Origin: Triplophysa rosa
Lineage: Eukaryota; Chordata; Actinopteri; Cypriniformes; Nemacheilidae
Reading direction: 5' to 3'
DNA length: 64,000 bases
Assembly: GCF_024868665.1 (NCBI RefSeq)
Contig: NC_079900.1
Coordinates: 3,715,573-3,779,572 of the forward strand
Positions 40,201 through 64,000 of the stretch are shown in pieces (positions within the stretch are counted from its first letter, which is position 1; each line of letters begins with the position of its first letter). Both the position numbers and the translations under genes were made by a program. Under the pieces are notes generated by a model. That model was not told where the DNA came from and did not search any database. It worked only from the letters and a program-made list of their open reading frames with translations.

Positions 40201-43200
40201 ATGGCTCATCAGGGTAAGTTTTTTTTTTGTATTTCACTAGAACATCAACATGTTATGTTTTTATTGACTCATGGTGTCACACATGTTCAATACTTGATCC
40301 TTACCGTATAGTAACTGTGAAAAAAGGTTTACAAAGAGAGCCTGGGGAGTTCCCTATTTTTTTCAAGATTTCTAAAGTAGTTTTTATTTCTTTCAGATTT
40401 TGTAGATTTCCACTTTGCAGTTCTGATCAATCGAGTTACTAACGTGATGCCCATTGCTGATAAGCTGTTAGAGAAAAGAATGCTTTCCACGGAGAATTAT
40501 TCGAAGATCAAAAACGAAAAAACTAGTCAAGGCAAAATGAGAGAGCTCTTACCTGTTGTAAAATCTGGAGGACCTGAAGTAAAATCATACTTTTATGAAG
40601 TACTAAAATTGAATGAACCTTACCTCGTTCAAGACCTTGAAAGTAAGAGTGAAAATAGTAAAATATGAATTTATATAATTTGGAAGACAATTTCTGAAAT
40701 CTTTTCTGTTGGTGTGGTATTTTAGGTCCCTCCTCACAGGCCTCTTCTGGTGTACTGCAATCTCAAGAAGAAACACAAGATACGCCTGAGGATGTTCTCA
40801 TGTGGAACCAGTCCTCTAAAAAGCACAGCAGTACAATCAAGGAGTTGCAGAATGACCGCTTAAAAAAGTTAGTTGGCAGCATCTACTTTTCTAGAAATGA
40901 GAAATACTTCATTGGCTCAGGAAGCAGTGGAACACAGGTCTATCTTGGCCTGAAAACAGACGGTACTGAGGTTGCCATCAAACGAATAACGAAGAATCCA
41001 CTGAACAACAAAACCTTTGAGAACGAACTGAAGCATTTACAAGATTTAAATCTCGAGAGCAAGAACATAGTCAGATATGTGGACTTTGCAGAAGATGATG
41101 ATTTTTATTACCTTGCACTACAACTTTGTGAATGTGATTTGGAGAGCTACATGGAAGACCTCCGTAAGCCAGAACATAAAGACAAAAAAGACGCTGCTTT
41201 GAAGAAAATAGTAAAGGACGTGCTTATTGGCCTTCGAGATCTTCATCATGGTGAAGTGATACATCGGGATTTAAATCCTAAAAATGTTTTGATAGGTATG
41301 AAAAGTAGTTTGTATAGTCATTTAGTATGTAAAGTTACCTTTCATTGATATAATAAAGTAACATCAAAACTCTTCTCAACAGATTCAGGAAATAATGCAA
41401 GGCTTGCTGACTTTGGCTTAAGTCGCAAACTGGAGGAGGGCAGCGCTGTGTATACCGCGAAAGCTGGTACCAGAGGCTGGGAGGCCGTGGAGACCCTTGG
41501 TCCTTCTGGAGACAGTAGATACAGAATGAGCTCAGATGTCCAGGTTTGTAAATTGAATCAATCGCCGTCATATAACCTCTCAAGGGTTCAAACTGAGGTC
41601 CAAGAAGTGCTTCAGGATCTGTGGAGCGTTTCAAAAACGAGAATGTTGATCTTTAGAATTACACATCTAAAAGTAGTAAAATAATGAGAAAACAAGACTG
41701 TCAACTCAATTTAATAGAAGGTGTTTGTCCTTCGTCTATAAATTAAAGTACAGCTACCAGAAATGTTCACGAGGGATCATCTTATTTGAAGATCTCAGGA
41801 CTTTTTTACTCTTTTCCGTACAATTGCAGATTGCAAAAATAGAGGATCAACTCTTAATATTGCTATTGTTTTATTCTCACTGTCAGATCAGTTTGTGCTT
41901 CACGGGTTGTTATTTATTCTAGGTTGCTGGGATGTTAATGTACTATATCCTCACTGATGGGAAACATCCTTTCGATGTAAATAACTCGGATCGAGAGACT
42001 AACATTAGAGAAGGGAAGTACTCTCTTGATGATGCCCTTGATATAGTAGCACAAGATCTCATAAAGAGAATGATCAACATAGACCCGGCACAGAGACCCA
42101 CCATGGATGAGGCCCTACAGCATCCTTACTTCTGGGATGATGTCAGGTAAATGATATGTAATGTCGTACATAGAATAGAATCTTCGAGAAAATATATCTG
42201 AGGAATAAAATGTGTTATACTGTTCGTGAAGTGGTGATGTTTGCCACCTGGATAATTTTGTGATGCATCTTCTGCTCGATGTTCAGCTGCAAACTGTACA
42301 TTTCTTTACTTTTTCTTGCTCAGATTCTTGTTTCCTCTGTTTTTACCTGTTCTGTTCTTCATGCCTTCTTACTCACAAAAGTGATTTTCCTACTGTCTGG
42401 ATCTTGGGTCTTGACTTCTGGGTCTCATCTTAGCATCTGTCTTGAGCTGTAAGTCTGAGAACTCAAAGGAACATTTCTTTCATCGTTTGCTTTAATTCAT
42501 ACAATAACTTATCTAAGCAGGCTGAAATTGATCTCAATTTACATATGTCATCAGAAGACGTGCAATAATATTGCCGCAAACTCAAAATATTGCTCACTTA
42601 CCTGTACTCTTCTCTGCAAAATTTTATTTTCTTCAGGAAAGATGCCGTTCTTAGGAAACTTGGAGACAGAGAGGAAGTACAATGCTATGTATATTTAGAA
42701 GAAATATACAACCTCTACAAGCAGATGGAGAACCGTGCGGGAGGAAACCCAACAGCAACATTGACCCTCGACGAGGCCATTGAGCATTTAGAAATTCCGA
42801 AAAATAAAAGGTAACTTATAAACAGTGACAAGAAACCTGAGTTATCAAAGTATATCTAATATCAAAGGAAAATGCTGATTATAAGTGCATTACATGTACC
42901 ATGTACACTCTTAAAATAAAGGTGCTTAAAAGGTTCTTCACAGCGATGCCATAGAAGAACCATTTTTGGTTCCACAAAGAACCATTCAGTCAAATGTTCT
43001 TTAAAGAACCATCTCTTTCTTACCTTTTTATAATGTAAAGAACCTTTTTTCGCCACAAAGAACCTTTTGTGAAACAGAAAGGTTCTTCAAATGTTGAAGG
43101 TTCTTTATTGAACCATTTACACAAAAACGGTTCTTCTATGGCATCGTGAAGCACCTTTCTTTTTAAGAGTGTATGTTTTTGGTTTTATTACTGTAGATTG

Positions 43201-44013
43201 ACAGTTAGATTAACATTAATTTTCACTACCTTGATTTATTTTAGCAGATCCTTTAACCAGAGCGCCTTTTTTTCAGGGAGGAGGTCAGAAAGGGTGTTCA
43301 TAAAGCAGTGGGTGATGATGTAGCAAAACTTAAGACCTTGTGTGACACTGCAAAGAAATACAGTGTGAAGAAAAGCTTTTCGACTTGGAAAACTGATGTA
43401 AGTAAACGCATCAAACAGCAAACTTGCCAAAACACTAGAGATGAGTTTTCCTCTCCCTGTTCAAACCATTGTATATCAAAATTATATTGTTATTAAATAA
43501 AATGTTAGATAACATTTGCCAGCGAACAATGGTCAAGTTTGTAAATACCTCTTGTTTTTAACACTGAACATGAACATCTGCAGTTACTGAAAAGTGGATG
43601 TATTTGCAGCTTTCGCAGATATGGACATCACCCAAAGACATCAACCAAAGGGCACCGGAGGACTTACTTGTCCTGTTTCGTTTTATGCGTAACAAACTGG
43701 TGCATGAGTAAGTGATGTGGAGTTGGTCTCTGAATTTAGATCCTAGAAGTTATTTGAAGCTCATCCTAAGAAATGGCGTTTGTCTTATACAATACTGCCA
43801 AAACCTCTCATAATTATGACATACAGATATGATTTTGAGGAATTAATCACTGCTTGACCTATACTTTATTGTTGCAATTAAATTAAATCTCACACTTTTG
43901 TTTCCTATCCCAACAGAAAACTTCGATTTGATGAGAAGAAATTGCTCAATCAATTCCCAGATTTCTTTATAAGTTTACACAGGCTGGCTAAAGAGCTGAG
44001 CTGGGATTACTGA
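40201..44013 (+). CDS. CARD - protein kinase - KEN ribonuclease domain protein (IRE1/RNase L-like), 9 coding exons
   Basis: Predicted cytosolic sensor or effector, 567 aa, with no signal peptide or membrane span. Exons: 40201-40213, 40397-40642, 40726-41295, 41383-41543, 41923-42146, 42637-42810, 43277-43397, 43610-43707, 43917-44013; phases all fit. Residues 5-86 are a CARD close to that of ASC/PYCARD (DFVDFH, LINRVTNV, KTSQGKMRELLP, EPYLVQDLE). A Ser/Gln linker follows to about 130, then a kinase domain: GSGSSG loop 150-155, VAIK Lys172, HRD 266-268, DFG 286-288, GWEAVE in place of GW-APE. Residue 270 is Asn where kinases have the catalytic-loop Lys (HRDLNPKN). From about 405 the KEN domain has STW, then RNKLVH (530-535), matching the RN-x3-H of IRE1/RNase L, and the terminal FPDFFISLHRL. 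It lacks the ankyrin repeats of RNase L and the luminal domain of IRE1. The start is supported by the paralogue's identical exon design (M-x-x-Q, phase 1). The domain assignment is strong; the function is inferred. Confidence 0.88.
40397..40642 (+). CDS. CARD-encoding exon of the first kinase-KEN gene
   Basis: A single exon encodes the whole death-fold domain with phase 1 on both sides, so it can be exchanged without a frame change. The wording is closest to the ASC CARD: FVD-x-H at the start, R-V-T-N/E-V in helix 1, T-S-Q-x-K-M-R in the middle and PYLV-x-DLE at the end. The equivalent exon of the paralogue (53963-54232), in the same phases, encodes a PYD instead. Confidence 0.9.
40676..42150 (+). 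repeat. Kinase-block duplication, copy A (partner 55551-57034)
   Basis: Exons and introns are nearly identical to 55551-57034. Identity starts upstream of the acceptor (TTTGGAAGACAATTTCTGAA) and runs through introns 41296-41382 and 41544-41922 to the donor at 42147, where it drops sharply. Non-coding DNA is as similar as coding DNA, so the block is a recent copy or conversion tract. Confidence 0.85.
42905..43176. repeat. Hairpin MITE, 'AAAGAACC' family, in KEN intron
   Basis: It begins ACTCTTAAAATAAAGGTGCT and ends in the inverse AGCACCTTTCTTTTTAAGAGT. Long arms repeat GGTTCTTC / GAAGAACC, including GATGCCATAGAAGAACC and GGTTCTTCTATGGCATC. It is a common fish hairpin element sitting about 100 bp before a KEN exon of the CARD-kinase gene. 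Confidence 0.75.
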
Positions 44014-44064
44014 AGCTGCATAGTCTTCATTTCTTTTTTTGGGAGCAGGACATTTTAGGATCTG

Positions 44065-44690
44065 AGTTTCTTAAAAGTCACTGCTGTCATGGCTCTGCTT
44101 CCTTAGTCATGTTTTTCTTGGTCCTGTAGCAGAGCCATGGCAAAGCCTTAGGTTTTATGTGAGAAGACCATGAGATGTTTGTTTTTTGACATCTCATTTG
44201 TTTTCTCAGGTCTTGTCATTGGCCCCGCCCCTCTCGTTTCCTGTATTGTCTCCCTCTTGTGTCTTATGTTCTACACCTGCCCCTGCTCGTTATCCGTCGT
44301 TTGTCTCTCCCTTTATATTCCCTCATGTTTCTTTGTCTTGTGCTGTTGGATTGTCTCATGTGCCTGTGTTCGTGTAGTCAAGTGTTTGAGAGATTCTGTC
44401 CTGTTTAATTCTCATTGTTGTGAGAATTTTCTGTGTGTGCTTCTTCTGTGCCTTGGATTATTTTCATTTTGTCATAGTAAGTCAGTTAGTTTATTTCCAG
44501 TGTTCTGTAGTTAGTCCAGTCAGTTTAGTGTGCCTGTCTAGTCTGTTTATTATTTATCCTCAGTGTTTTACCCCCTTGTGGGTTTTTGTTTTGTGTTTCT
44601 TGTTAAGAAATAAAGCTTTGTGTTAACCCCTTCACTGCCGTTGCCTGCATCTGGGTTCTTCATCCACGCTCAACCGTGACACACTGCGGC
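44065..44690. repeat. Dispersed repeat supplying a likely polyadenylation signal
   Basis: T/C-rich repeat starting just after the CARD-kinase stop codon. It contains an internal hairpin (CATGGCTCTGCTTCC near 44088 and GTAGCAGAGCCATGG near 44127) and ends near CCACGCTCAACCGTGACA. AAGAAATAAAGCTTTGTG at 44605 offers an AATAAA signal for the upstream gene. The 114-codon frame here (44170-44514) is low-complexity repeat translation. Confidence 0.5.
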
Positions 44691-44999
44691 AAGTTTGTTC
44701 TTCCGAAGCGCCTTCTTTGTTCTCATCATTTAAACGTTAACGGTCATTTCTTTTTACCTCACTGCCTGATTTTACTTTAGCGGTTTATTAATATTCTTTT
44801 CTTTACTTTATACCTTACAGATGTGAGAGTAAACATATTTTAGTGATTTTCGATCGATTTGGCTCGTTTAAATGAACGGACCCTGATGTTTGTGATTGTG
44901 ACTAAAGCTTTTGATTGTTGTTTCTAAAAACGGACAACCTGCTAAACTTATGTGGTAAGACAAGAATATAATGTTAATTATTTTTTTACATTTATATAG

Positions 45000-45500
45000 C
45001 GCTTTTCTGGGCACTCAAAGCGTTTTACATGGAAGGGGAATCTCCTCAACCACCACCAATGTGCAGCATTCACCTGGATGATGCGACGGCGCCAGAACGC
45101 CCACCACACACCATCTTATTGGTGGAGAAGAGACAGAGTTACGAAGCCAGTTAGTACATATGGGGATGATTAGGAGGCCATGATGTATATAGGCGAATGG
45201 GAGAATTTGGCCAGGATGCACCCCTTCTCTTATTCGAAGGACATCCTGGGATTTTTAATGACCACAGAGAGTCAGGACCTCGGTTTAACGTCTCATCCGA
45301 AGGACGGTGCTTTTTGACAGTGTAGTGTCCCCATCACTATATTAGGACCCACACAGACCACAGGATGAGCACCCCCTGCTGGCCTCACTATCACCTCTTC
45401 CAGCAGCAACCTAGTTTTCCCAGCAGGTCTCCCATCCAGGTACTGACCAGGCTCAGCCCTGCTTAGCTCCAGTGGGCAACCAGTCTTGAGCTACAGGGTG
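45000..45500. repeat. Dispersed fish repeat ('TATATAGCGCTTTTCT' family)
   Basis: It starts with ACATTTATATAGCGCTTTTC followed by TGGGCACTCAAAGCG, a phrase I recognise from a very abundant teleost repeat. The rest includes AGGACACCCCCTGCTGG-like and CCCATCCAGGTACTGACCAG text. It is non-coding. Confidence 0.65.
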
Positions 45501-45784
45501 ATAAACCTAAACATCATTTTTTTTTTATCTCTGTCAATAAATATCTGCTTTAAATCCTCTATAGTGTGTTGAAGACTTTGATTATTTATGTCTACTGTAT
45601 AAATAAAATATATGATTGTGTTTTATAATCGTTATACTGTGTTTTATACTTATTTGAATAGAGAATTACTCCAATTATGCAGAAATTTTTATCTTTAACG
45701 CACAGATTAAATCACAAATTAATTTAATCCTCCATGTGAGGTATGATAATTGTTTAAATTAAATAAATAAAAAAGATTTTAACA

Positions 45785-46040
45785 ACGTGACTGTTTGGTC
45801 TTTAGGACGTGCTCATCACGTCCCAGAAACGTTATTTGGTATGTCGCTGCGACGAATATGGTATGTTCCAGGTATGTCTTCAGGAGGTAATCACCATGTC
45901 CCAACCAGGTCCAATGTTACGTCGTCAGGACGAATATGGGAATCACAAAGTTACGTCGCTGGAACGTTATTATGGTACGTCGTGGCAACGAATATGGTCC
46001 GGTCCAGGTACGTCGTCACAACGTAACTGTGTTAGCTGGG
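45785..46040. repeat. Array of ACGTCGT/AACG-rich short imperfect repeats
   Basis: The words ACGTCGTCA, ACGTCGCTGG, AACGTTATT and CGAATATGG recur at short intervals (for example 45840-45870, 45915-45945, 45960-46020) in both orientations. CpG is unusually frequent for this AT-rich area. It lies just upstream of the likely 5' exon of the PYD-kinase gene. Confidence 0.55.
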
Positions 46041-46249
46041 AATGTATTGCATATTATGCATCCTTCCTAGTCAAATTAAACACACAAAACTGATTAATAT
46101 TGCCTCTCTAACACTCATCAGACAAAATTTTATACATTTAATCATTAAGTAATTAGTGCATTTATTGTGTTGGTATTTAGTGAAATTTGTTGCAAATACA
46201 GCTGCTTCCACTGTCTCTTCCGCTTAAACCCATTCAAACAGACTGACAG

Positions 46250-46407
46250 TTTGGAACTATTGGGAGGCGGGATCTCCATATGAAGATCAACGTGTGTCGC
46301 AACTCTGTTTTTCAACGGCTCTGGGTCTGTGCAACGCCTTTCCTTTGTCGCTGTTTGACTTCCGCTCCACATTTAATGCAGAGTTAAGCCGCGTCTCATA
46401 CTCTAAG
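46250..46407 (+). other. Possible 5' UTR exon of PYD-kinase-KEN gene
   Basis: It ends CTCATACTCTAAG|GTAAAATACTTCTG, closely paralleling CCTGCTCTAAG|GTAAACTAAATGACTTCTG at the matching place upstream of the CARD gene. Both are followed by TTTCATATAAAC. CTTCCGCTC also occurs upstream in both. The 5' end is not defined. If right, the first intron region of the PYD gene spans 5.7 kb of transposons. Confidence 0.45.
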
Positions 46408-46639
46408 GTAAAATACTTCTGTAATTTCATATAAACATAAGATAAGTACTTATATATATATTCGACACAGTACAGCATATGATACACAGTTATATGTTTT
46501 TACGTTTCTTTGCCATTTTAGGAATAGATCGTGACCTCGAACCTGGTTTTACTTCACTTTTATGCAGGCAATAATTTTCTAAGTAGGTGTTTTGTAGCAA
46601 TTTCTATGTATTATTCACATTTACAATATCGGTCAAACG

Positions 46640-47010
46640 TTTAGTTTAACTTAACTGAAATCTATTATATGTTTTATATAATGCAGTGAACTTATGCAAA
46701 ACCACTGGTAGAGTAAAGGCTGCTTTATGCTCGACGCTTCCGCAAGTAATTTATTTTTACTTTTTAGGCTTCCGCAAATTCGCTTGGGTGCGCGCGGCAA
46801 ACGTGACTTCGTCGCGGTGTTGGCGGATGTTCGCTTTGCTTTCTGCACTGCGCGGCAGTGTGCACGGCTTTTTTTGTAACTGCGCGCGCGGCAACCCATC
46901 CGAAAACGAACGAGGGGGATACGAGTCTAGCCGAGCAAGCATGTCTTTACATGAACAATGCAGACTCTTTATCCAATACGTTTTAAATAACCTATGTGAA
47001 GTTTAATATG
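46640..47010. repeat. GC-rich element (GTAAAGGCTGCTTTATGCT family)
   Basis: It begins near GTAAAGGCTGCTTTATGCTC and has a CpG-dense core (GCGCGCGGCAAAC, CGTCGCGGTGTTGGCGG). Similar GC-rich wording in inverse sense occurs at 50810-50995, ending in a GCGAAATGTGAATCAGGGC tail. The two sit outside the inverted repeat pair at 47.1-50.7 kb. Frames across it are artefacts. Confidence 0.45.
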
Positions 47011-47139
47011 TTTTCCGGGGACTGTTCTGTTTCTATTACTATAGTTTTAACAGAAACATCATATAACATCATATAACTAATGTTCCTGTAGTGAGACAAT
47101 AGTAAATTTGTGGTCCCGATGATTTATACTACAAATACT

Positions 47140-47880
47140 AAAGTAAAATTGCTTGGTAAATTGCGCTGTTCAAGCAAACCACTTCTTTATGGAGGACCAG
47201 GAGAGCCGATTAGAAATAAAATGAAGAATCAATTGATCTTCTTCTTTTCATTTCGGCTGTTCCCTTCAGGGGTCGCCACAGCGAATCATCTGCCTCCATC
47301 TAGCCCTATCCCCTGCATCCTCTTCTCTCAGACCGACTACCTTCATGTCCTCGAAGAATCAATTGATCAATTTAATAATTAAAACATAAAAATGTAAACA
47401 AATAAATAACTTTTTAATTGAGAAATTAATAGACTAATTTAAAATGGTTTATTAATTTGTTTTTTCAAAATGTAGTTTGAACAATAAAACATTACATAAA
47501 AAATCATTTTTAAATGTATAAATAAATAGATACATTTAAAACTGTTTATTTAATTCATGCTTTAAAACGTAAAAAATAAAACAATAACAATTGCATTTTT
47601 TAAAAATTGCATTTTAAAAAAGCATTTGCCAAATGCTTTTCTCTCTCTATTTGCCAATTGCTTTTCTTTGTCGTTTTGCCAAATGCTTTTCTTTATCCAT
47701 TTGTCAGTCGAGTAAAAAATGCCACTGGACAGTACACACGTGGGGGCAACCAATCAGCTTTCGGCTCAGGTTTAGGATACACCCCTTCTCCCATATGTCA
47801 TACGAAGTAGATGTAAGGCGGAATTTCATTGGACCGCAAGAAAGACCGCCATTAAAACAGTAACGTTATACCTTGCGCCA
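47140..47880. repeat. Inverted repeat arm A of a 3.6-kb foldback structure
   Basis: It carries TATGGAGGACCAGGAGAGCC, GATTAGAAATAAAATGAAG, the AT-rich ATTAATTT tracts, GCATTTGCCAAATGCTTTTC and GGCAACCAATCAGCTTTCGG. Each occurs as its reverse complement, in reverse order, at 50205-50735. It contains a 114-bp insertion at 47239-47352 that arm B lacks. Confidence 0.75.
47239..47352. mobile_element. 114-bp insertion with 16-bp target duplication
   Basis: The sequence GAAGAATCAATTGATC occurs on both sides (47223-47238 and 47353-47368). The opposite arm (about 50680-50695, reverse complement) has the uninterrupted site with a single copy. The inserted sequence includes TTTCGGCTGTTCCCTTCAGG and GGTCGCCACAGCGAATCATC, a common fish short repeat. 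A long target duplication suggests retroposition. Confidence 0.75.
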
Positions 47881-47884
47881 TAAC

Positions 47885-48010
47885 TACATGCTCTCACTAA
47901 ATCCTTGGCGTTTCGAGTCAGATCCGTGGGCGTGGCTTTTTGGTTTTGACTAAATCCTTGGTGTTTCAAGTCTTACAAAACCTTTACCCCAACCCCCACT
48001 TAAACAGAGA
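47885..48010. repeat. CTCACTAAATCCTTGG-type element, partial copy
   Basis: CTCTCACTAAATCCTTGGCG, GAGTCAGATCCGTGGGCGTG and GACTAAATCCTTGGTGTTTC match the complete foldback copy at 61565-61795, with the CCCCAACCCCCAC tract that follows. Confidence 0.65.
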
Positions 48011-48301
48011 TGAAATTATATACCAATATTTATCCACTTGGACATTGTTGTCCTCATTTTACTTGTCAATTAACTTTTTTTTCCAATGTCTTGTTCTGTT
48101 CTGCGCCTCGGGATGTTTCTTTGCTCGATCCATTTGGTCATGTGACTGTCACAGAGTGAGCGGTTGACATAATAACTTGATCAAATATATTTGTTGAACT
48201 CGTTTAAAATGCTAGACAAAAATTTTAAGCGTCTTATACAATTGTATATACTTAACGTATTATATAATTATGTTTTATTAAAAAAAAACTTCAAATAATA
48301 T

Positions 48302-48312
48302 TCTTTATAAAG

Positions 48313-48347
<35 letters not shown>

Positions 48348-48350
48348 AGG
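48302..48350. repeat. (GAAA)n/(GA)n microsatellite
   Basis: An uninterrupted AAAG run of about nine units followed by GAGAGAGAGA. Confidence 0.9.
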
Positions 48351-49144
48351 CACAAGTAAAAGTAAAGTTACACAGAGATAAACATGTTTTATTTGATATG
48401 ACACCTAAAAGCAATGGACAATTGTATTCTGGGGTCACTGGTTCAGAATGAAATTGATTTGTCTGCTGCTTCTTTGCCTAACAGTTAGGTGTCACTAGTG
48501 AGCAAAGCTGAATGAAACTTCGGGTAATGAACCTTTTGATGAAGGAATAGACTGCGAAGTCTCAGTGGTTCAGGAGGCAGGCATCATTTTGCCATCACTA
48601 CCATTAATAACAAGGCGTTTGTTCCATCGCATTGCATCCAGGGGCAGAATTTCTGTTTATAAATGATGTTTTATTAACAAACTTCGGGAGGAGCATGTGC
48701 AGATAATTAACCCGGCTGGCTTTCAATCACAGTAATCACCTAACCAGCACTACACATACCAAGCAGTCCTACCTTCAGTCTCTCTATTATCTCTCGACAT
48801 CCCTACTTCACACCGACTCCTCACCTTTAATCCTTTTTTCCACCTCTGCACCGGGGATAAGCCCAGGGTTCGGGCCCACTCCGGACCTGGGGCCCTCTCC
48901 CCGGTCAAGGGGCGGGTGCTCCGAGCTTGGGAGTGATAATGAGATTGGAGCTCCCTCCCCGGGACAGCACACCAAATACACTTACCAGCCGTCCCACTTT
49001 ATTATCAGCTAAGGTGAACTTGTGAATGGGTTATAGTATTTTTCTGCACTGCTCACGTGCGGTGTAATGTTAAACAGGGTGTAAATTAAAAATGGATTGC
49101 AGGAAGCTTTCCAGGCAGCATTACAATACCAACCTGAGAGTCCT

Positions 49145-50190
49145 TGAATCGCTCTCGCAGACTAGAAGAATCTAGAGTCACGAGAACCGTTTCTGTCGGG
49201 CATGTCCGATTTGTGAACCGTCGGACCGGTTGCCGGTTCGCGAATCGCTTCTTCGGACACGAACCGGTTGCAACAGCTTTCGATTCAGCAGTACACGAAC
49301 CGAGCTGCTTCTTTCGGACACGTCCGATTCAGAACCGATGATACTGCACATGCGTGTAATTTTAAAAGCAGATAAAAAGCAAGTCAGATATTTTTATAAA
49401 ACAGAGGTGTGATACTATAAAACACATTGGAAAGATGTTTAGGACTTTATTACTGCTTCATCACTGTACGTAAACCAATCTGCAGCGCCGTTTACGTTCA
49501 TGCCACTGCTAGAGCGGTTCTCGCTCTTGAGTCAAGAGCCGGTTGCAACAGCTTTTGATTCAGCAGTACACGAACCGAAGAGCCGCTTCTTTCAGTCACG
49601 TCCGAGTCGGTCGTGAGTGAGAACCGATGAGCTAATGATAGTGAGCATGCGTGATTCACCGTGAGGCTACAGAACAGTGTGGACAACTGATGCTGTGCTA
49701 ATGTTACGAGCGCACGTGAACCGAGGACTTAAATATATGGAGCAATCTGGCAAAGCGTAAGTTTATTTAATAACACATAAATCGTATTGAATTATGCATG
49801 GATCATATAGTTTCTGTAAAATGCTGATGAAGATGAATTATTCACTTTTTATCTTTAAGACTTAAAATGTCATAGTTTGCTGCTGCACTTCACTGTGCCT
49901 ATTTGGGTGCTTTAGTTGCAAAACGTATATGTAAGAAACGTGTCAGATCATGACATGATGTGTTAACTGACAGAAGTTATGATTACTGGTTTTGGTTTAT
50001 ATTTGAATGTGCCGAGTGTATTTTAATCCCAGCCGGTCGGGATGATACTAGACTTGACGCGTTTCGTCAGGGCAAGTGACGTCATTACGTCAGAGCGTAA
50101 GAGAATCAGTGAACCGGTCTTTTGAACCGGTTCATTGAAACGAACTATCCGAAAGAACCGGTTCGCAGAAAAGAGCCGGACTTCCCATCA
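49145..50190. repeat. GAACCGGTT-rich element cluster
   Basis: GAACCGGTT or close variants recur throughout. A block with GCAACAGCTTTCGATTCAGC and AGTACACGAACCGA appears twice in the same orientation (about 49268-49340 and 49543-49630). The right edge has TGAACCGGTTCATTGAAACG. It lies between the inverted arms at 47.1-47.9 and 50.2-50.7 kb and reads as the interior of a composite or nested element. Confidence 0.55.
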
Positions 50191-50204
50191 CTAGATGTCA
50201 TGTA

Positions 50205-50735
50205 GTTATGGCGCGGAAGGTTTAACGTTACTGTTTTAATGGCGGTAGGTCTTTCTTGCTGTCCAATGAAATTCCGCCTTACATCTACTTTGTATGCCAT
50301 ATGGGAGAAGGGGTGTATCCTAAAACTGAGCCGAAAGCTGATTGGTTGCCACCACGTGTGTACTGTCCAATGGCATTTTTTACTCTATTGACAAATGGAT
50401 AAAGAAAAGCAATGGCAAATAGAGAGAGAAAAGCATTTGGCAAATGTTTTTTTAAAATGCGATTTAAAATGCACATAAAATTTTTATTGTTTAATTTTTT
50501 TACGTTTTAAAGCATGAATTAAATTCATGCTTTAAAAAAATTCTTTAACGTTTTATTGTTCAATTAAACTACATTTTAAAACACAAATGAAATAAACCAT
50601 TTTAAATAAGTCTATTCATTTCTTAATTAAAAAGTTATTTATCTGTTTACATATTTATGTTTTAATCATTAAATTGATCAATTGATTCTTCATTTTATAT
50701 CTAATCGGCACTCCCGGTCCTCCATACTTCTTCTC
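50205..50735. repeat. Inverted repeat arm B of a 3.6-kb foldback structure
   Basis: Reverse complement of arm A: CCGAAAGCTGATTGGTTGCC, AAAGCATTTGGCAAATG, then AT-rich tracts and GATCAATTGATTCTTCAT, then CGGCACTCCCGGTCCTCCAT. It gives the unoccupied site for the insertion in arm A. Confidence 0.75.
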
Positions 50736-52105
50736 CACGCTAATACGTGCTGGTTAGTTGACTCGATAACTCTGAGTCGCCCTCTGTCGTTTCAAAGAAT
50801 AGCACAACGACATGCGCGTCAAATATAAACGCCTCGTTTGTTTGCGGAGGTGCGCGTGCAGAGCGCCAAATAGGGAGCGCCGCGGTCGCGACGCACACAT
50901 TTTTTCTAGGCGCCGCATCAAAATGGAAATAGTTCAACTTTACAGAGTGCCACGTGCGCGGTCGCAGTTTTAGACGCGAAATGTGAATCAGGGCTAAACA
51001 TGCATTCGGTGTCCACTCTTGACCAAGACTTCGACCTTAGTACCATCAATCAGGATTTCCTTTTTATTACTTTTTTACTCGTGTTATTGTTGATGTGACT
51101 CATATCTTTTTGTTGTCCTAGTTCTGTTAGGTTCCACCATCATACATTTTTTATAAGTGTGCCTACAGTATATAGAGTGGTGCAGAGATGACATGATCTT
51201 TTTGTATGCATAACCTGGAAGCGAGATAACATTTTAACACTTTCGGTTCCATCGCCCCAAAGTCAAAGGTTTTTTTTAAATGGTTTTTGGTTAAATGCCT
51301 AAAATAAGGTTTGTGGATACAAAACCTATAAATATTTTCATGTTTTAACCTATGACATAAAACACACCTGTTATAACCCACTCGTGATTTTTAAACCTTT
51401 ATCGTGTCTTAAAAACGGCAGTTGCAAGTTGCTAAAATGACTTCATCCTTTGGTGGGGACGTTAGACATCATGACACATAAATTTCACAAATAATGCAAC
51501 ATGGACACAAATCTCTAAAAACGTGGATGGGGATTCATTCACGGAGTAATTACTTACCAGGGAACACATTTTTAGTAAAGTAGGGGTTGTCAGAGGCTTG
51601 GTGGTGACTTCAATATCGAGTGACCTGTAGTGTTGTGTGTTTATAGCATCATGCTAGCTTTTTACTTCTGTCAATTGTAACAAATGTTGAGTTCCTCTGT
51701 AAATATTATTTTGATAGACAAAACATGTAAGTATCATAAACCTTTGTTAATCACAGAGCTTATTTTTTGTGATCTTCTTATGGGTTTTTTCCATAGACTT
51801 TTGGTCATCTCTGCAGTACTCTATCACTTTAACATCCCAGTGCCAATGCTGTAGCACAATGTCACTTTAAAATTCCAGTGCACTCCATTTGTGTTTTAAC
51901 TTAGGCCTATATGTTGTAAATTGTATATATTGTATAGTCCTATAACTGTGTATAGAGTTCAGTCCTACAATATTACCTCGACATAAGCATTTAAGGGCAC
52001 AGTTTTCCCTTGTGTTAACTCTGCAAATGACAAATAAATGTCTCTTGTCATTTCGTAACTTTTGTCATTTTGTAAATTTGTAACACACAGGAGTAAAGAG
52101 AAACA

Positions 52106-55100
52106 ATGGTAGATCAGGGTAAGTTTTATTCACTGAACCATTACACAACATGTAATGTTAATTTGTAGTTAAATTGTACTACTACTACTACTACTAGTAA
52201 TAAATATAGCTGCAAGCAGCAATTACGGGGTCAAGCCCAGCAATTGCCCAAAGGGAAATATTGTGGACATGTCAGATGATCAGATTTTGAAAACCAAGTT
52301 TAAAAACAGGGAAATGCACTTAGGACACAATAAAATTGCTTATAACGTTTGACCACTAGGTGGTGCTGACACCAAATTTTTATGAGGCAGACAACATGTG
52401 CCAGTAATGATACTTACGTGTCAATACACAAAAGTGTCGCGAAGATACAGCTACATGACCTTAGAAGTCATTGACACAAGAATCGCTTGACCAATAAAAA
52501 AGCTTTTGAATTTTTTTATTTAGGGATCTCTCTAGAAGCCATATACCAAATTCAGTGCAAACCAGACAGGTTTTGTAGGAGTTTGAAAAAGTGTGTTTTC
52601 TATATAATTCAATATAATGGACAGGAAGTATGGTTGAATATGACAATTTTGATATCAATGAACTCGGCTTGAGCCAATAAATATACTAATGTGAATCCTA
52701 TAACATTATGTTGATTTCCTCACGTTACAAGCATTTTAATACATTTCGTTATATCTCTTGACCACTAGGGGGTGCTAGCTTGTAACTTTAAAGGTCCTAT
52801 CAGAACTTGACCGTGATGAACCTTACGAAGTTTTGTAGCATTTCACCATTGCATTTGTAAATACTGCATTTTACAACAAAATTCCAAATGGGCGACGCCC
52901 AGACCAAGCAACATTGGGTATTAATTGACTCGCATGACTCAAAGAACCAAATGAGACCAAAAGTTTTCAAGTTATAAGCAAAATAGCCATCTTTATATCT
53001 CTGGACCACTAGGTGGCACTGTGCCGAAAATGTGTATGTCGAGTATCTTCATAAGGGCAAACTTCATGACTTACTTTAGGAGTTAAATAAAGTTTTAAAT
53101 GAATGCATATAGAGTTGCCAAAATTGGAAATGGGTCAGATCTGCATCCAGCAGCAGCTGCTGTGACTCCTGTCAGTAATGTTTATCAAAGAACAAAAGAA
53201 AATAATAATTCAATGTGTTTGTAGCTTTAATGAGATTTCTTGTGTATTTAATGTAGAATTTTGTAAGTCGCTTTGGATAAAAGCGTCTGCTACATGACTA
53301 AATGTAAATGTAAATTTAGCGGCGAAGACTGTAAAGTGTTTGATAACCTTCAATTTCTGTATATTTCCTATCTGTTAGATAGGTAGGAAAGGCATAGAAA
53401 AATAAAAGTTTTTTTTAAAGACTAATACATTTTAAAATTGATAACTCTCCATTATACTATAGGCTATAATTAATGTAAAAATTAAGAAAAAATTGCATAC
53501 ATAAAAAGTTGCGATTTTATTTAAAAATATATATATTTTATGGTTATTATTTTAATGGATTGACAACACTAACTGTTATGAATGAATATATGAATAGAAA
53601 ATCCAGATTTCATTTTACCTTGCTTATAAAGCAAAAGAATCTTAAAGCTCAAGTTGTAAAAAAACCTGAGATTGTAATTGTGATGATTTAATGTTGAAAT
53701 ACACAAAACAGCATGATGCTGAATTATTGACATGCATTCGACCCTACAGGACTAGACTAGACTCGCCGAGGCTCATATAACCAATAACAGCTAATGAGTC
53801 ATTCTTGTAATGCACATCAATTTCTAACAAATTTATTTACATTAAATAAATAATCCCAAATATAGTATGTTGCACCCTGAGCCAAACATGCATCAGCAGA
53901 TTAAAAATCCCTTTGTTAAGAAAGTTTTTTTTTAGTGTCTCATACTTCATTATCTGCTGCAGGTGAAAGATCTGTGCATCTGATTCTTCTGGAGTGCCTG
54001 GATGATCTGAAGTCAGAGGATCTCATAATATTCACATGGCATTTGACTTCAGAAAGTAATTATGGCAAAATCTCCAAAAGCAAGCTAGAGAATAAAGCGA
54101 GGTGTGATATTGTGAGTTGTATGATTGAACAATATAAAGAGGACGGTGCTGCAGAAGTCACTCAGTTGATTTTGAAGACAATGAAACAAAACAATCTTGC
54201 AAAAAAACTGCAGGAAGAGCTCAACGTGAGAGGTAAAGATGAATGTTTCTACAGCACACTATAACCGCACAGACAACTTTCCCCTGATACTCATTTACAT
54301 ACAGTATATTCAGAATGATTGATGTAAATATTACAACCTCACAGCTCTGTTTTATTTTCTACAGATTAATAAACCATGATGAGTCACAAAAAGCTGATTT
54401 GCCCTATAAAAATGTATTTGAATTGAAGAGTTGTGCAAGGACAACCTCTCCTATGTAACCACATAAATAAATAAACAGAGTTGCTCTAAAATGACCAAAT
54501 TTGTCTGCATCACCTAAAAGTACAAAGAGAAAAGCAGATTTTCAAAGCATTTATCTTAGTGATAGTTCACCCAAAAATGAAAATTCTGTCATCATGTACT
54601 TAATCTTTTGTCATTTCCAAACTGTATGACTTTCTTTCTTCTGCAGAACACAAAGAAATTTGTTTATATGTTTATTGTGAAAATGGTCTCATTTTACCCT
54701 TCTTTAAATCCCTGTATATTAATGAGCCAGGAAGGGTCGTAACAGTGAACATACAATCAAAGTCAATGGGTACCATCGGTTTTTGGTAACCAGCATTCTT
54801 CAAAATATCTTCTTTTGTGTTCTGCAGAAGTCAGCAGGTTTGACGTGGCAAGAGGGTGAATAAATGATGACAAAATTGTCATTTTTGGGTGAACTATCAC
54901 TTTAAAGCGATAGTTCAGCCCGGAATTAAAATTGTTGTTTATTTGTGCCTCATATATGGACGTAAGTGGGAGCACATAATATATCCAACACAAGCATGAT
55001 CCCGCGGCTCCTGGTGACATGTTGACATCTTGTGAAGCAAATTGATAATTTTTTGCACTAAAATTAACGTCATTTCTAAAATTATGAGCAATATTTTACA

Positions 55101-58100
55101 GTTTCCGCCAAACGTCCTTTCCTGATCGCACTTCCTCTGTTGCATTCAAAGATGAACGGACACTGGTGTGTTTACAGGGTAGAAAGAGGATGTGTGTGCA
55201 GATCTCAAGATACGTCATTTATGCGTCAGGACGTTTGGCGGAAGCTGTAGAATACCACTCATAATTTTATATAAATTTATTGTAAATAATGATCGTTTCG
55301 CTTCACAAGACAACAATATGTCACCAGGAGTCGTGGGATCACGCTTGTGTTGGATATATGTGCTTTTAGAACTCTTAAAGATCTGGCACCCGTTTACACC
55401 CATTGTGTGAAGCACAGAGGGCTGCGGATTTACCTAAAAATTGTCTTTATGGTTTACTCAAAAAAATGTCACCTACATCTCAGCTGGCCTAATGGTGAGT
55501 AAATAATCACAAATTGTAATTCTGGGCTGAACTATCGATTTAATTGATGTAATTTGGAAGACAATTTCTGAAATCTTTTCTCTTGGTGTGGTATTTCAGG
55601 ATCCTCCTCAAAAGCCTCTTCTGTAGTACTGCAATCTCAAGGAGAAACACAAGATAACACAGGCACACCTGAAGATGTTCTCATCAAGTGGAACCAATCC
55701 TCTAAAAAGCACAGCGATACAATCAGAGAATTCAGAAATGACCGCTCAAAAAAGTTAGTTGGCAGCATCTACTTTTCTAGAAATGAGAAATACTTCATTG
55801 GCTCAAGCAGTGGAACACAGGTCTATCTTGGCCTGAAAGGAGATGGTACTGAGGTTGCCATCAAACGAATAACGAAGAATCCACTGAACAACAAAACCTT
55901 TGAAAACGAACTGAAGCATTTACAAGATTCAAATCTCGAGAGCAAGAACATAGTCAGATATGTGGACTTTGCAGAAGATGATGATTTTTATTACCTTGCA
56001 CTACAACTTTGTGAATGTGATTTGGAGAGCTACATGGAAGACCTCCGTAAGCCAGAACATAAAGACAAAAAAGACGCTGCTTTGAAGAAAATAGTAAAGG
56101 ACGTGCTTATTGGCCTTCGAGATCTTCATCATGGTGAAGTGATACATCGGGATATAAAACCTAAAAATGTTTTGATAGGTATGAAAAGTAGTTTGTATAG
56201 TCATTTAGTATGTAATATTATTACCTTTTATTGATATAATAAAGTAACATCACTGTTCTCAACAGATTCAGGAAAGAATGCAAGGCTTGCTGACTTTGGC
56301 TTAAGTCGCAAACTGGGGGAGGGCAGTGCTGTGTATACCGCGAGAGCTGGTACCAGAGGCTGGGAGGCCGTGGAGACCCTTGGTCCTTCTGGAGACAGTA
56401 GATACAGAATGAGCTCAGATGTCCAGGTTTGTATATTGAATCAATCGCCGTCATATAACCTCTCAAGGGTTCAAACTGAGGTCCAAGAAGTGCTTCAGGA
56501 TCTGTGGAGCGTTTCAAAAACGAGAATGTTGATCTTTAGAATTACACATCTAAAAGTAGTAAAATAATGAGAAAACAAGACTGTCAACTCAATTTAATAG
56601 AAGGTGTTTGTCCTTCGACTATAAATTAAAGTACAGCTACCAGAAATGTTCATGAGGGGATCATCTTATTTGAAGATCTCAGGACTTTTTTACTCTTTTC
56701 CGTACAATTGCAGATTGCAGATGTAGAGGATCAACTCTTAATATTGCTATTGTTTTATTCTCACTGTCAGATCAGTTTGTGCTTCACGGGTTGTTATTTA
56801 TTCTAGGTTGCTGGGATGTTAGTGTACTATATCCTCACTGATGGGAAACATCCTTTTGATGTAAATAACTCGGATCGAGAGACTAACATTAGAGAAGGGA
56901 ATTACTCTCTTGATGATGCCCTTGATATAGTAGCACAAGATCTCATAGAGAGAATGATCAACATAGACCCGGCACAGAGACCCACCATGGATGAGGCCCT
57001 ACAGCATCCTTACTTCTGGGATGACGTCAGGTAAATGATTGAATAATATTTCACAAATTTAATTAATGTTTTACTTATTTGTTTGGTTGGTTTCATGGAA
57101 TGGAATATTTGAGAAAATATAGGAATAAAATGCGTTTTCACTTTTTTTAAAACGATGGTCACACACACTGCTTGATCTTTTCATATTTCTTCTGTTTCTT
57201 TCCAGTTCTGTTCACGGGTTCTTTCTCAGACAAAAGCAACTCTTTGGCTTTTCCTCTTGTTTCTTGACTTTAGGCTCTTTATCTTGGAATCTGTCTTCAT
57301 CTGTGAGTCTGAGAACTTCACCCAAAAAATACATTTACAACATTTACTTAAAGCCATACATTAGCTTATTACAATAGCTTATTTAAAGAAATAGACAACA
57401 AATTACTGTAAGTTTTCAACTCGTATGGTGTCTGTGGTCCATAGCCACAAGACACAGAAACAATGAGGTGTGACTTCAAGTGTCATTCTAAGGCCATTTC
57501 TAAGTGTAATACCAGTGTATAATATCTTACATCTGGGTCTGTTTCAGATCTGTTGTTGTGTGACTTCAGAAGACTTAGCCAAAGCCTAAAACATTCTCAA
57601 CTACTCACCTACTTACATTCTTTTATGCACAATTGTATTTCCTTCAGGAAGAAAAGAGTCCTTAAGGACCTGGGTGATAGAGATGAAGTACAAAAATATG
57701 AGCTGTTAGAAAAACTTTACAACCTCTTCGACAACAGCAAGAACAGTAGTCGGGGAGAAGACCCAACAGCCAAACTGACCATTGATGAGGCTTTTGCTCA
57801 GCTTAAAATCCAAGCTGAAAAGAGGTTATTTAAAAATGCATAATACTGTAATTTCAAATGTTTATAAAAAATGCCATTTTTATTACGTTGTTTATTTAAG
57901 GCTTGATATGCAGACGTCCCTGTTTTGCTGCTAATTTTACTTGTATGTATTTTTTTACTGTAGGAACGATATCCTCAGTTTAGTGGGTGAGGATTTAGCA
58001 AAGCTTTATAAGCTATGCGACAATGCAAAGAAGTACTGTGTGAAGAAAACCTTTTCTAATTGGAAAACAGATGTGAGTAACAGCATCAAATAGCACAGCT

Positions 58101-58508
58101 CGCCAAAACGAGCTTTACTTTTTTTTGCAACAAAATCGTTTTGTTTTTAATTGTATGTTAACATACTGTTAAGGGTACGTGTTTTTTATATTCACAGCTT
58201 TCACAGATATGGCCGGACATTAACCAAAAGCTCCCAGAGGACTTGCTTGGCCTGCTGCGTGTTTTGCGCAACAAAATGGTGCATGTGTAAGTTAGGGATG
58301 GGGTTAGGGATACAGAGGTAGTATCTGAATTTTGGTGTAAGATTGTCTGCAGTTATATTTACTCTTCCTCTTTTGTTTGATGTCCGACAGAAATCAAGTA
58401 TTTTATGAGAAGAACATGCTCAACCATTTCCCAGATTTCTTCATAAGTTTATATGGGCTGGCCAAAGACCTGAGCTGGGATATTGATGATGCAGAGGAGA
58501 CACCATGA
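52106..58508 (+). CDS. PYD - protein kinase - KEN ribonuclease domain protein (IRE1/RNase L-like), 9 coding exons
   Basis: Tandem paralogue of the CARD-kinase gene, 579 aa. Exons: 52106-52118, 53963-54232, 55600-56178, 56266-56426, 56807-57030, 57648-57824, 57964-58072, 58198-58286, 58391-58508; phases all fit. Residues 6-94 form a pyrin domain (LLECLDDLKSEDLIIFTWHL, ISKSKLENKARCDIV, ILKTMKQNNLAKKLQEEL). The Ser-rich linker is longer than in the paralogue (extra DNTGTPED). The kinase keeps VAIK, HRDIKPKN and DFG, so its catalytic residues look intact. The glycine loop is one residue shorter (IGSSSG against IGSGSSG) through a 3-base deletion. The KEN domain spans about 416-579 with SNWKTD, RNKMVH (535-540) and FPDFFISLYGL; it ends IDDAEETP. 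One donor is weak (AGAG|GTTATT at 57825). Likely role, inferred: PYD-mediated clustering activates RNA cleavage. Possible alternative: an inactive regulator. Domain assignment is strong. Confidence 0.88.
52205..53170. repeat. Dispersed repeat starting ATAGCTGCAAGCAGCAATTA
   Basis: The opening ATAGCTGCAAGCAGCAATTA followed by CGGGGTCAAGCCC is a very common fish repeat. It also contains three variants of TTGACCACTAGGTGGTGCTG at about 52350, 52758 and 53002. It fills the first coding intron of the PYD gene. Confidence 0.6.
53255..53320. repeat. SINE/LINE 3'-tail fragment
   Basis: TTGTAAGTCGCTTTGGATAA, then AAGCGTCTGCTACATGAC: the same tail as at 8458-8530 in the opposite sense. Confidence 0.65.
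53963..54232 (+). CDS. PYD-encoding exon of the second kinase-KEN gene
   Basis: One phase-1/phase-1 exon encodes a complete pyrin domain. Features: the helix 1-2 signature LLECLDDL...F-x-WHL, basic and polar KSKLENKAR in the middle, and a C-terminal LAKKLQEEL helix. It occupies exactly the position of the CARD exon in the neighbouring gene. Confidence 0.9.
54555..54905. repeat. Foldback MITE, 'TTCACCCAAAAATG' family, copy 7
   Basis: It begins AGTGATAGTTCACCCAAAAA and ends CATTTTTGGGTGAACTATCA. It abuts another inverted-repeat element at 54906-55545. It is in the intron between the PYD and kinase exons. Confidence 0.75.
54906..55545. repeat. Foldback element with GATAGTTCAGCCC ends
   Basis: The left end GCGATAGTTCAGCCCGGAAT and right end ATTCTGGGCTGAACTATCG are inverted. 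Internal inverted pairs include TCCAACACAAGCATGATCCC (left) and ATCACGCTTGTGTTGGATAT (right). No coding capacity is recognised. Confidence 0.7.
55551..57034 (+). repeat. Kinase-block duplication, copy B (partner 40676-42150)
   Basis: Nearly identical to copy A through three exons and two introns; see copy A. Differences are mostly single bases, plus the 3-base deletion in the glycine loop and a short linker insertion. Confidence 0.85.
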
Positions 58509-60167: not shown

Positions 60168-61045
60168 CTACTGCTCTGTGACGTGCTGCAGGGTTTTGTT
60201 AACAGCTTTCAGAGTTTGACTGGCTTCCTGTAGCTCCATGCTAAACTGACTGCTTTTCTCCAGCACCTCGGACAGCTCACTGATGATGGCCTGAATCCCC
60301 TGACCACGCTGCTCATAATAGTCAAACATCTGCTCCCTCACCTGCTGACACATCTCACTCACCTGCGTAAACACACGGGAGCCAGAACATCTATGCAATT
60401 GTGTATAAAACTTGTTCAGGCAATATTTACCAGGATAATTACAATCCAGATTTAGATTGCATTTGTTTCCTATTTCTAAGCCTCTTGAGTACCTTTTTCG
60501 TGAGTTGCTCCTCAAAGCTGTTCATCACAGGTTGGTCCATGGCCCGGCGTTCATTGATCCTCTCGATAAGATCCTGTGCTCTCTTTCCAATGTCCTCTAT
60601 TCTTGAATTTGTGAGAGACAGTACGCTATCATGTTCAACAGTGCTTTGGTCCGGTGAACTTCTAGTTGGGGATTTTGAAACGCAGATACCGGAGTCCTCA
60701 CTGTGTGAGAGATGGATAAGATGACAACAATCCTTATCAATGAACAAACAACAATACAGTATGGTACATAACTAAGTTGTGCTTTACTGGCTCACCTCTG
60801 CTGTTCGATGCTCTCATCCAGCTTTACAAATGATAATGTTTCACCTGTTGAGGTACGCCCCTCATCTGACACCTGTATGGACAAGAAGTTCCGCATTAGC
60901 AAAACTACATCACTTCAACGTTACTATTAAACATTATTGTTCGTTTGTGTATCTTCTATACCTTTGCTGACGCATGGTGATGACCGGTTTTGGGTGTTGA
61001 ATGTAACGTTATGGACCCTGAACTTCCCAAAAGCTGCTGAGACAT
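60168..61045 (-). CDS. syce2: Synaptonemal complex central element protein 2
   Basis: A meiotic protein of the synaptonemal complex central element, which in mammals partners TEX12 to extend synapsis between homologous chromosomes. Exons: 60962-61045, 60796-60872, 60493-60700, 60168-60362; phases fit and give 187 aa. A Ser/Thr-rich, poorly conserved N-terminus (MSQQLLGSSGSITL) leads to the conserved core from about residue 90: NSRIEDIGKRAQDLIERINE then RRAMDQPVMNSFEEQLTKKV. A long coiled coil follows (VREQMFDYYEQRGQGIQAII, LSEVLEKSSQFSMELQEASQ), ending HVTEQ. This matches human SYCE2 in order and spacing (recalled KRAQELIENIN, LMTNFRNSLKTKV), though it is shorter at the C-terminus. Expression would be expected in germ cells; nothing in the sequence shows it. 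Confidence 0.87.
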
Positions 61046-62320
61046 GGCCTAAATAAACAAAAAATACACACGAGCGAACATTAATTATACAACATACTTT
61101 CCTTATATGCTATACTTACATTTATATTACATTATATAATCAAGATTTCAAAAATTAGCCATGGTTTTACTGCACATCAAACCAAACCAACCTCGGTTAC
61201 TATAGTTAAATCAGGATAACTAAACATTAACCATGTTTCTATAGTTACCATGGTATCCATAGTAAAACTTTGGTTATGCAGGTAACGTTACTCAATCTGC
61301 CAGAAACATGGTTAATTTTCGTAAGGGATGGCAGTCTTGAAAAATAACATGTTACCAAGTTAATAACGTCACCATATAGCGTCGCATCGTATTTAGGGGT
61401 CATTCGCAAGTTAACGGTACACGACACATGTGGAAAAACATTACTTTATTTAGTTTAGTTTGTGAGCCATGTTTTGTAATAAAACCGAGTAAACTTCAGT
61501 GCAATAAACAATGTAATTGTTTAATTTTTCACTTTGTTACACGTTTGCATGTATGTGATGTAAATTAGGGCTCTCACTTAATCCTCGGTGTTTCGAGTCA
61601 GATCCGTGGGCGTGGCTTGTTGGTTTTGACTAAATCTTTGGTGTTTCAAGTCTTACGAAACGTTTACCCTAACCCCCACCCTAACCTTACTCTAACCATC
61701 TAAACTACCTATCATTGTTAAAATTGACGAAAAAACACGTTTGGGTGATCACGTCTGACTCGAAACACCAAGGATTTAGTGAGTGCCGTAAATTAGCGGG
61801 TTGCTTAGCTTGTCTGACTGACTTTTCTTCAATTTAGCCAAACTTAACTTACTCGCTTCAGTACAGTGTTACCGTCAAGTAATGTGTGTTTGACTCTTTT
61901 TTTCATCGACCCTTTTTTTCTGGTGATATTTTCTGACGTTTATTAGAGGTATTTCACATTCGGCTACTCACACAGGATATAGATCCCTCCCTCGAATGAT
62001 GCGCGTCACCTGCACAGCACGTGAGCACGCTTCTCGGTGAACGGCGAGTACTTTGCTTGTTCGCTTGGTTGTCATGTATCCTGCTATTCGTGGTATTCAA
62101 AGCATGTACATTTGTAATTTACGTTACGTTATTTATTTATTGATATTACGGGACGTATTAAAGCACAAATATTTTTTGCATTTGGGATTTACGGAGCTTG
62201 CTGTTCGGTGCCTGTCGTTCTGAAATCTTAATAGCCTACACAGCGCGCGCGCACGCACACACAATAAAAATAAAGGGTCTTATTCCAGTAGGTTTTGATG
62301 GTATTTTTCTGGTTAATATA
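61046..62320. other. Region upstream of syce2
   Basis: It contains the likely syce2 promoter (not resolved), a tract of GGTTACTATAGTTA-type imperfect repeats at 61140-61330, and a complete foldback element at 61565-61795. A somewhat CpG-richer piece lies around 61990-62060. No further exon was recognised. Confidence 0.45.
61565..61795. repeat. Foldback element, CTCACTAAATCC family, complete copy
   Basis: The left end GGCTCTCACTTAATCCTCGG and the right end CCAAGGATTTAGTGAGTGCC are inverted. The interior carries a CCCTAACCCCCACCC tract. It is related to the partial copy at 47885-48010. Confidence 0.75.
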
Positions 62321-63921: not shown

Positions 63922-64000
63922 TATATCCACCACATACATCATCACACCAACAAGCCAGTAGAGACCATCAGAGCATAGTTTCCTTTTAAAACGAATTTCC

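Follow-up and report, generated by a model that had tools for sequence, protein, structure and literature searches.

Death-fold, kinase and KEN domains combined in two neighbouring genes of the cave loach Triplophysa rosa

Two neighbouring genes, here called A and B, that combine a death fold with a kinase and a KEN ribonuclease domain can be found in the window analysed, a stretch of 64,000 nucleotides of contig NC_079900.1. Both come from the cave loach Triplophysa rosa, a member of the family Nemacheilidae and not a cyprinid, the group in which an initial annotation, made from the letters alone, had proposed a survey. The death fold is a CARD in gene A and a pyrin domain (PYD) in gene B. 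Both products are best read as cytosolic immune effectors of the order death fold, kinase, KEN ribonuclease, which would cut RNA upon assembly of their death folds (probability about 0.6). The exon structure, folds, catalytic residues, trees and a high identity confined to the kinase part are observed.

Exon structure and domain content

Exons were derived from stop-to-stop frames, with splice sites placed by hand (Table 1). By conceptual translation, gene A (40201-44013, forward strand) encodes 567 residues and gene B (52106-58508, forward strand) 579 residues, and the start codon at 40201 and the last stop base of gene B at 58508 bound the pair exactly as first annotated. Each gene has nine exons, GT...AG introns, a frame open throughout and the same entry phases (0-1-1-1-0-2-2-0-2), while exon 2, encoding the death fold, is in phase 1 at both borders, which bears out the common exon design proposed earlier. 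Both genes are already in RefSeq under irl/ire-1-like names. The conceptual protein of gene A is identical, letter for letter, to 'probable serine/threonine-protein kinase irlF [Triplophysa rosa]' (P0003), a match by which a pseudogene is rejected; gene B shows 100% identity to two 'ire-1-like' isoforms over 90% and 84% of its length.

Regarding the death folds, gene A scores 57.6 bits with Pfam CARD (PF00619, cut-off 23.9) and gene B 59.3 bits with Pfam PYRIN (cut-off 22.9). The nearest solved chains of the CARD are 4irl (a GBP-like protein) and 5gpq (ASC), both of which we take to be zebrafish proteins, followed by ASC and NLRP1 CARDs. The CARD and the pyrin domain of the initial annotation are upheld. 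The PYD sequence gives weak matches among solved chains, to ASC (best E 0.00096) and AIM2 PYDs. PYDs lead the list of structure matches (TM about 0.8-0.87) to its predicted model (predicted local distance difference test, pLDDT, 91), with 7 of 124 matches at E<=0.001 (ASC, NLRP6, pyrin and others) and NLRP3 and AIM2 next at E 0.002-0.006. A helical death fold is found for the CARD and the PYD alike by Pfam and predicted structures, and a chance match is rejected by the Pfam scores, the PYD model and the structure matches. A tblastn search at E<=10 for remnants of a CARD in gene B or of a PYD in gene A returned, beyond the two known exons, only short matches at chance level (E 0.89 or worse).

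Pfam Pkinase (PF00069, cut-off 31.7) matches genes A and B with 163.1 and 160.2 bits, respectively, and IRE1 is nearest to the kinase among solved structures (E 4e-40). An ncbifam scan of gene B returned kinase families only, none near cut-off. Directly after the kinase, hhalign detects a KEN domain (99.8%, E 2.7e-28), the predicted model of gene A aligns with IRE1 over residues 132-567, and the catalytic R-N-x3-H is present as RNKLVH in gene A and RNKMVH in gene B. These exons are shown to encode KEN by hhalign, fold and catalytic motif, and sequence, profile and fold agree on the architecture initially annotated.

The relatives considered are the 120 that were listed out of 1023 matches, isoforms of one gene being counted apart. 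In their alignment, the VAIK lysine is kept in 118/118 rows with a residue there, the HRD and DFG aspartates in 119/119 each, and the HRDxK lysine in 118/119, the sole exception being gene A (HRDLNPKN at 41262-41285), which has lost it despite the near-identity of the A and B kinases otherwise. In the 72 rows of the CARD/PYD branch, the catalytic N, H and R rank 11th, 10th and 24th in conservation among 154 KEN columns. A RIPK2-like signalling role, in which the kinase would be the output, KEN only a dimerisation scaffold and the CARD or PYD a means of recruitment to receptors, could draw on the complete kinase residues of gene B and nearly all relatives, and CARD-kinase fusions such as RIPK2 are known. 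This is quite improbable, however, since a scaffold has no need of a nearly invariant ribonuclease motif and gene A has retained that motif while losing the loop lysine. Still more doubtful is that A and B would be decoys or inhibitors which bind and dampen ASC-type assemblies in the manner of CARD-only and PYD-only proteins, with a vestigial enzyme part: captured death folds are known in decoys and those of A and B resemble the folds in ASC and related proteins, but the KEN motif and kinase residues are conserved across relatives, and the ratio of nonsynonymous to synonymous divergence (dN/dS) of the KEN exons is 0.41 or 0.55. With this ratio, the open frame and the consistent phases, a pseudogene is unlikely for gene B as well.

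Relatives, probable gene conversion and probable exon exchange

In a kinase tree of 115 rows, rooted at the midpoint only, a 46-row ankyrin/RNase L-like branch stands against a 69-row CARD/PYD branch (100/100), within which a clade of tetras and catfishes (98/85) lies apart from cypriniforms (100/99). Judged from this split in the kinase tree, the CARD form seems to go back at least to the ancestor of the otophysans, unless CARDs were captured repeatedly. Among the matches listed, a precomputed CARD is found on at least 61 and a PYRIN on one (P0038, Onychostoma); carps, tetras and catfishes all have CARD-kinase relatives. CARD-kinase-KEN proteins are, by these sequence comparisons, recurrent in related fishes, the unusual member being the PYD gene B, and because gene A is moreover already annotated, the two genes cannot be called unique inventions. 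Other combinations were seen as well: in Onychostoma and Labeo (P0047, P0052) a UEV domain (best E 1.2e-47) is joined to the front of this kinase chassis, and in another PYD-kinase fusion, P0145 from Labeo, a PYD lies ahead of a kinase named Nek4-like. P0004 from Misgurnus shows three successive CARD-like stretches with kinase fragments between them, then kinase-KEN, and perhaps results from tandem genes that were merged in prediction.

The kinases of A and B differ by a dS of 0.025 and a dN of 0.018 (NG86), and their KEN parts by 0.68 and 0.28 (NG86) or 0.55 and 0.30 (YN00), respectively. DNA self-comparison delimits a stretch of 95.5% identity, introns included (Table 1), which we interpret as a tract of gene conversion. 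The KEN tree (40 of 119 rows, those with at least 120 residues) places gene B with CARD-bearing Misgurnus and Paramisgurnus proteins (97/91) and gene A with P0005 and P0009 from T. tibetana, a long row (92/98). That the two KEN parts are sisters is rejected by the approximately unbiased test (p-AU 0.0017; 26 rows, tested after the tree was seen).

The PYD of gene B is 70% identical to that of P0121, a T. rosa 'NLRP1 homolog' whose gene probably lies elsewhere in the genome; both group at 100/100 in the PYD tree, and the PYD of P0121 begins with G-E-R-S-V-H, as does the PYD exon of gene B. P0121 carries PF13553, presumably FIIND, with the PYD at its end, and P0136, a relative from Salmo, shares these precomputed domains. 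In contrast, the PYD of P0038 groups with cyprinid NLR-type PYDs (90/84). A shared PYD origin for gene B and P0038 is rejected by the kinase (p-AU 4e-108), by KEN (p-AU 5e-12) and also by the PYD tree, the test covering 26 hand-picked rows with the pair named by domain label and with a divergent, long-branched P0038 KEN. The two different PYD affinities thus indicate, on the trees, that a PYD has been captured at least twice. Our reading of the pair is an old duplication, a recent conversion of the kinase and the replacement of the CARD exon of gene B by a PYD exon; most likely the gene B lineage carried a CARD first and gained its PYD by exchange of a phase 1-1 exon. Conversion acting unequally on the domains of one family is described for zebrafish NLR-B30.2 genes, whose groups differ in their N-terminal death folds (PMC4852459).

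Proposed function

The CARD of gene A or the PYD of gene B would join or nucleate a homotypic CARD/PYD assembly, for which an ASC speck, an NLRP1- or GBP-type sensor or a PYD protein such as P0121 are candidates. Such an assembly would bring kinase-KEN units together as back-to-back dimers, as in IRE1 and RNase L, and the KEN active sites of A or B would then cleave RNA of the cell or of a virus. The N-terminal slot would be exchangeable, gene conversion having kept the neighbouring kinases alike. The active form of KEN nucleases is a dimer or oligomer, and CARDs and PYDs build helical filaments; proximity-driven RNA cleavage would therefore be the simplest output of such a fusion. Activation of IRE1 and RNase L is driven by oligomerisation, and filament-clustered KEN domains switching on RNA decay would fit both this analogy and the conserved catalytic residues. 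Oligomerisation, RNA cleavage and an upstream sensor are what we infer for A and B.

Several points weigh against this function. The Ribonuc_2-5A cut-off (23.3 bits) is missed by gene B (16.7 bits), and gene A does not match the profile at E<=1, although among the 46 members of alignment A1 it is matched by 18 at E<=0.05. Of the profiles that the initial annotation had proposed as a check, CARD, PYRIN and Pkinase pass while Ribonuc_2-5A fails in both genes; taken literally, this is the failure that was to refute the initial annotation, but it is outweighed by the motif, hhalign and the fold alignment. The kinase of gene A may be weak or dead because of its lost loop lysine (the RNase L kinase is itself a pseudokinase). 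Catalytic residues are lost in some CARD-labelled relatives (R in 3/49, N in 1/48, H in 2/50; of the 60 rows in this set, 10 to 12 have no residue at these positions), among them P0032, which has C at the catalytic R and is, with one other loach protein, closest to the KEN of gene B. P0038, the only other PYD-kinase relative of this family among the matches listed, lacks R and N, so that no second intact PYD-kinase-KEN is found there. The 2 kb ahead of each start contain no kappa-B consensus; one GAAANNGAAA site is found 1.2 kb upstream of A and four very common TTCNNNGAA-type sites near B (no shuffled control), and from these sequences an inflammatory promoter signal is not clear, nothing being convincing.

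Lastly, the full PYD is missing from both RefSeq isoforms of gene B: X1 (P0001) starts at the Met at 54121, the first within the PYD exon, and X2 (P0002) uses another first coding exon, 55449-55494, without PYD. This X2 exon is found a short way ahead of the kinase exon, within DNA that may be repeat-derived. Gene B could accordingly be no PYD protein in practice, its PYD exon being rare or giving a half-domain and its working product a kinase-KEN protein without death fold, the more so as both models omit the 13-base start exon, situated 1.8 kb ahead of the PYD exon. We regard this as unlikely, since X1 does splice the PYD exon to the kinase exon, and with no earlier Met in the PYD exon a predictor overlooking the 13-base exon must begin at 54121. 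The putative start exon is flanked by an acceptor-like cag, located 16 bases ahead of its ATG, and by a gtaagt donor, and its M-V-D-Q resembles the M-E-D-Q and M-K-D-Q that precede CARD stretches within the loach relative P0004; the entire PYD frame is open and folds at the confidence given above. Both this exon and transcription of the full PYD form are putative.

Elsewhere in the window, an inverted repeat of about 550 bases, 82% identical, lies between the genes (47353-47890 / 50199-50691) and another of about 630 bases, 93% identical and possibly a mobile element, at 62316-62945 / 63319-63926. On the reverse strand can be found an exon with a RasGEF_N motif (14907-15245, 43 bits), an exon with a sub-threshold choline-transporter match (29093-29464, 18 bits) and coding-like exons (60168-60771) which, in our view, resemble a synaptonemal-complex central element protein, their sub-threshold Pfam matches being to other families.

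Table 1. Exons of genes A and B and the stretches of high identity between them (positions in the window).
Feature	Position	Strand	Evidence
Gene A exon 1, ATG, M-A-H-Q, donor gtaagt, phase 1	40201..40213	+	protein identical to RefSeq P0003
Gene A exon 2, CARD, phase 1-1	40397..40642	+	PF00619 57.6 bits; solved matches 4irl, 5gpq
Gene A, 95.5% identical stretch, introns included	40668..42155	+	DNA self-comparison
Gene A exon 3, linker and kinase to catalytic loop, HRDLN (K to N) from 41262	40726..41295	+	PF00069 163.1 bits
Gene A exon 4, kinase, DFG and activation loop	41383..41543	+	gene model, Pfam
Gene A exon 5, kinase C-lobe	41923..42146	+	gene model, Pfam
Gene A exon 6, KEN start	42637..42810	+	gene model, hhalign, fold
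Gene A exon 7, KEN	43277..43397	+	gene model, hhalign, fold
Gene A exon 8, KEN with catalytic R-N-K-L-V-H (43688-43705)	43610..43707	+	motif alignment
Gene A exon 9, KEN C-terminus and stop	43917..44013	+	gene model
Gene B exon 1 (putative), ATG, M-V-D-Q, donor gtaagt, phase 1	52106..52118	+	gene model, P0004 likeness
Gene B exon 2, PYD, phase 1-1	53963..54232	+	PYRIN 59.3 bits; model pLDDT 91 matching ASC, NLRP6 PYDs
Gene B alternative first coding exon, isoform X2, no PYD	55449..55494	+	RefSeq X2
Gene B, partner of the identical stretch	55542..57039	+	DNA self-comparison
Gene B exon 3, linker and kinase, loop HRDIKPKN from 56145	55600..56178	+	gene model, Pfam
Gene B exon 4, kinase	56266..56426	+	gene model, Pfam
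Gene B exon 5, kinase C-lobe	56807..57030	+	gene model, Pfam
Gene B exon 6, KEN start	57648..57824	+	gene model, hhalign
Gene B exon 7, KEN	57964..58072	+	gene model, hhalign
Gene B exon 8, KEN with catalytic R-N-K-M-V-H (from 58267)	58198..58286	+	motif alignment
Gene B exon 9, KEN C-terminus and stop	58391..58508	+	gene model

Known systems and implications

The well-known animal kinase-KEN ribonucleases are RNase L, switched by 2',5'-oligoadenylate (2-5A), which its ankyrin repeats bind, and IRE1, switched by stress of the endoplasmic reticulum. While RNase L has the order ankyrin, pseudokinase, KEN, genes A and B have a CARD or PYD instead of the repeats, no ankyrin family is among their Pfam matches, and the KEN of the CARD/PYD branch has roughly 40-50 more residues than that of the ankyrin branch. 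The domain map of A and B holds no luminal sensor like that of IRE1 (ERN1/ERN2) and only a death fold and linker before the kinase (no transmembrane prediction made); an ordinary IRE1 duplicate is rejected, the death fold standing where that sensor would be. RIPK2 resembles gene A in having a CARD with a kinase, in the opposite order and without KEN. Unlike ASC, which unites PYD and CARD in one protein, A and B carry one of the two each. Fish ASC, NLRP1-type proteins and zebrafish Gbp4 are the closest solved relatives of the CARD exon of A and the PYD fold of B; fish inflammasome proteins act via ASC and caspases, whereas in A and B the death fold is fused to a kinase-ribonuclease.

Zebrafish Gbp4 is a CARD-bearing immune effector requiring Asc (PMC4932187), and HEPN fusions with CARD or DEATH domains occur in animals in the DZIP3 and CXorf38 families (PMC3710099), which are other HEPN families than the KEN of A and B. 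The KEN entry of the latter source, in the portion seen, names kinase, ankyrin, CCCH, UBI and BRCT partners and no CARD or PYD (PMC3710099), and a term search of a teleost inflammasome review gave no 'RNase', 'IRE1' or 'kinase domain' (PMC9978379). Among the full-text literature matches listed, which leave subscription journals mostly outside, no title or abstract opening concerned CARD- or PYD-kinase-KEN proteins. The initial view of the pair as undescribed stands as far as the papers listed go, but gene A is already annotated and the CARD form is recurrent.

A wider reading, which we hold tentatively and at somewhat less than even odds, is that an otophysan RNase L/IRE1-like chassis has become an inflammasome-gated family of RNA-decay receptors, the sensor slot of which would be swapped by symmetrical phase 1-1 exons (CARD, PYD at least twice, UEV) and in which ASC, NLR or similar assemblies would directly set off the cleavage of RNA throughout the cell, either in addition to caspase activation or in its place. 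As CARD-kinase relatives can be found in carps, tetras and catfishes, the idea is open to test in aquaculture species and cell lines. The probable exchange of a CARD for a PYD exon offers a natural experiment in the rewiring of an immune receptor, and the pair is a candidate fish immune switch from protein clustering to RNA destruction. If true, a CARD/PYD-switched branch of kinase-KEN proteins would couple inflammasome assembly directly to RNA decay.
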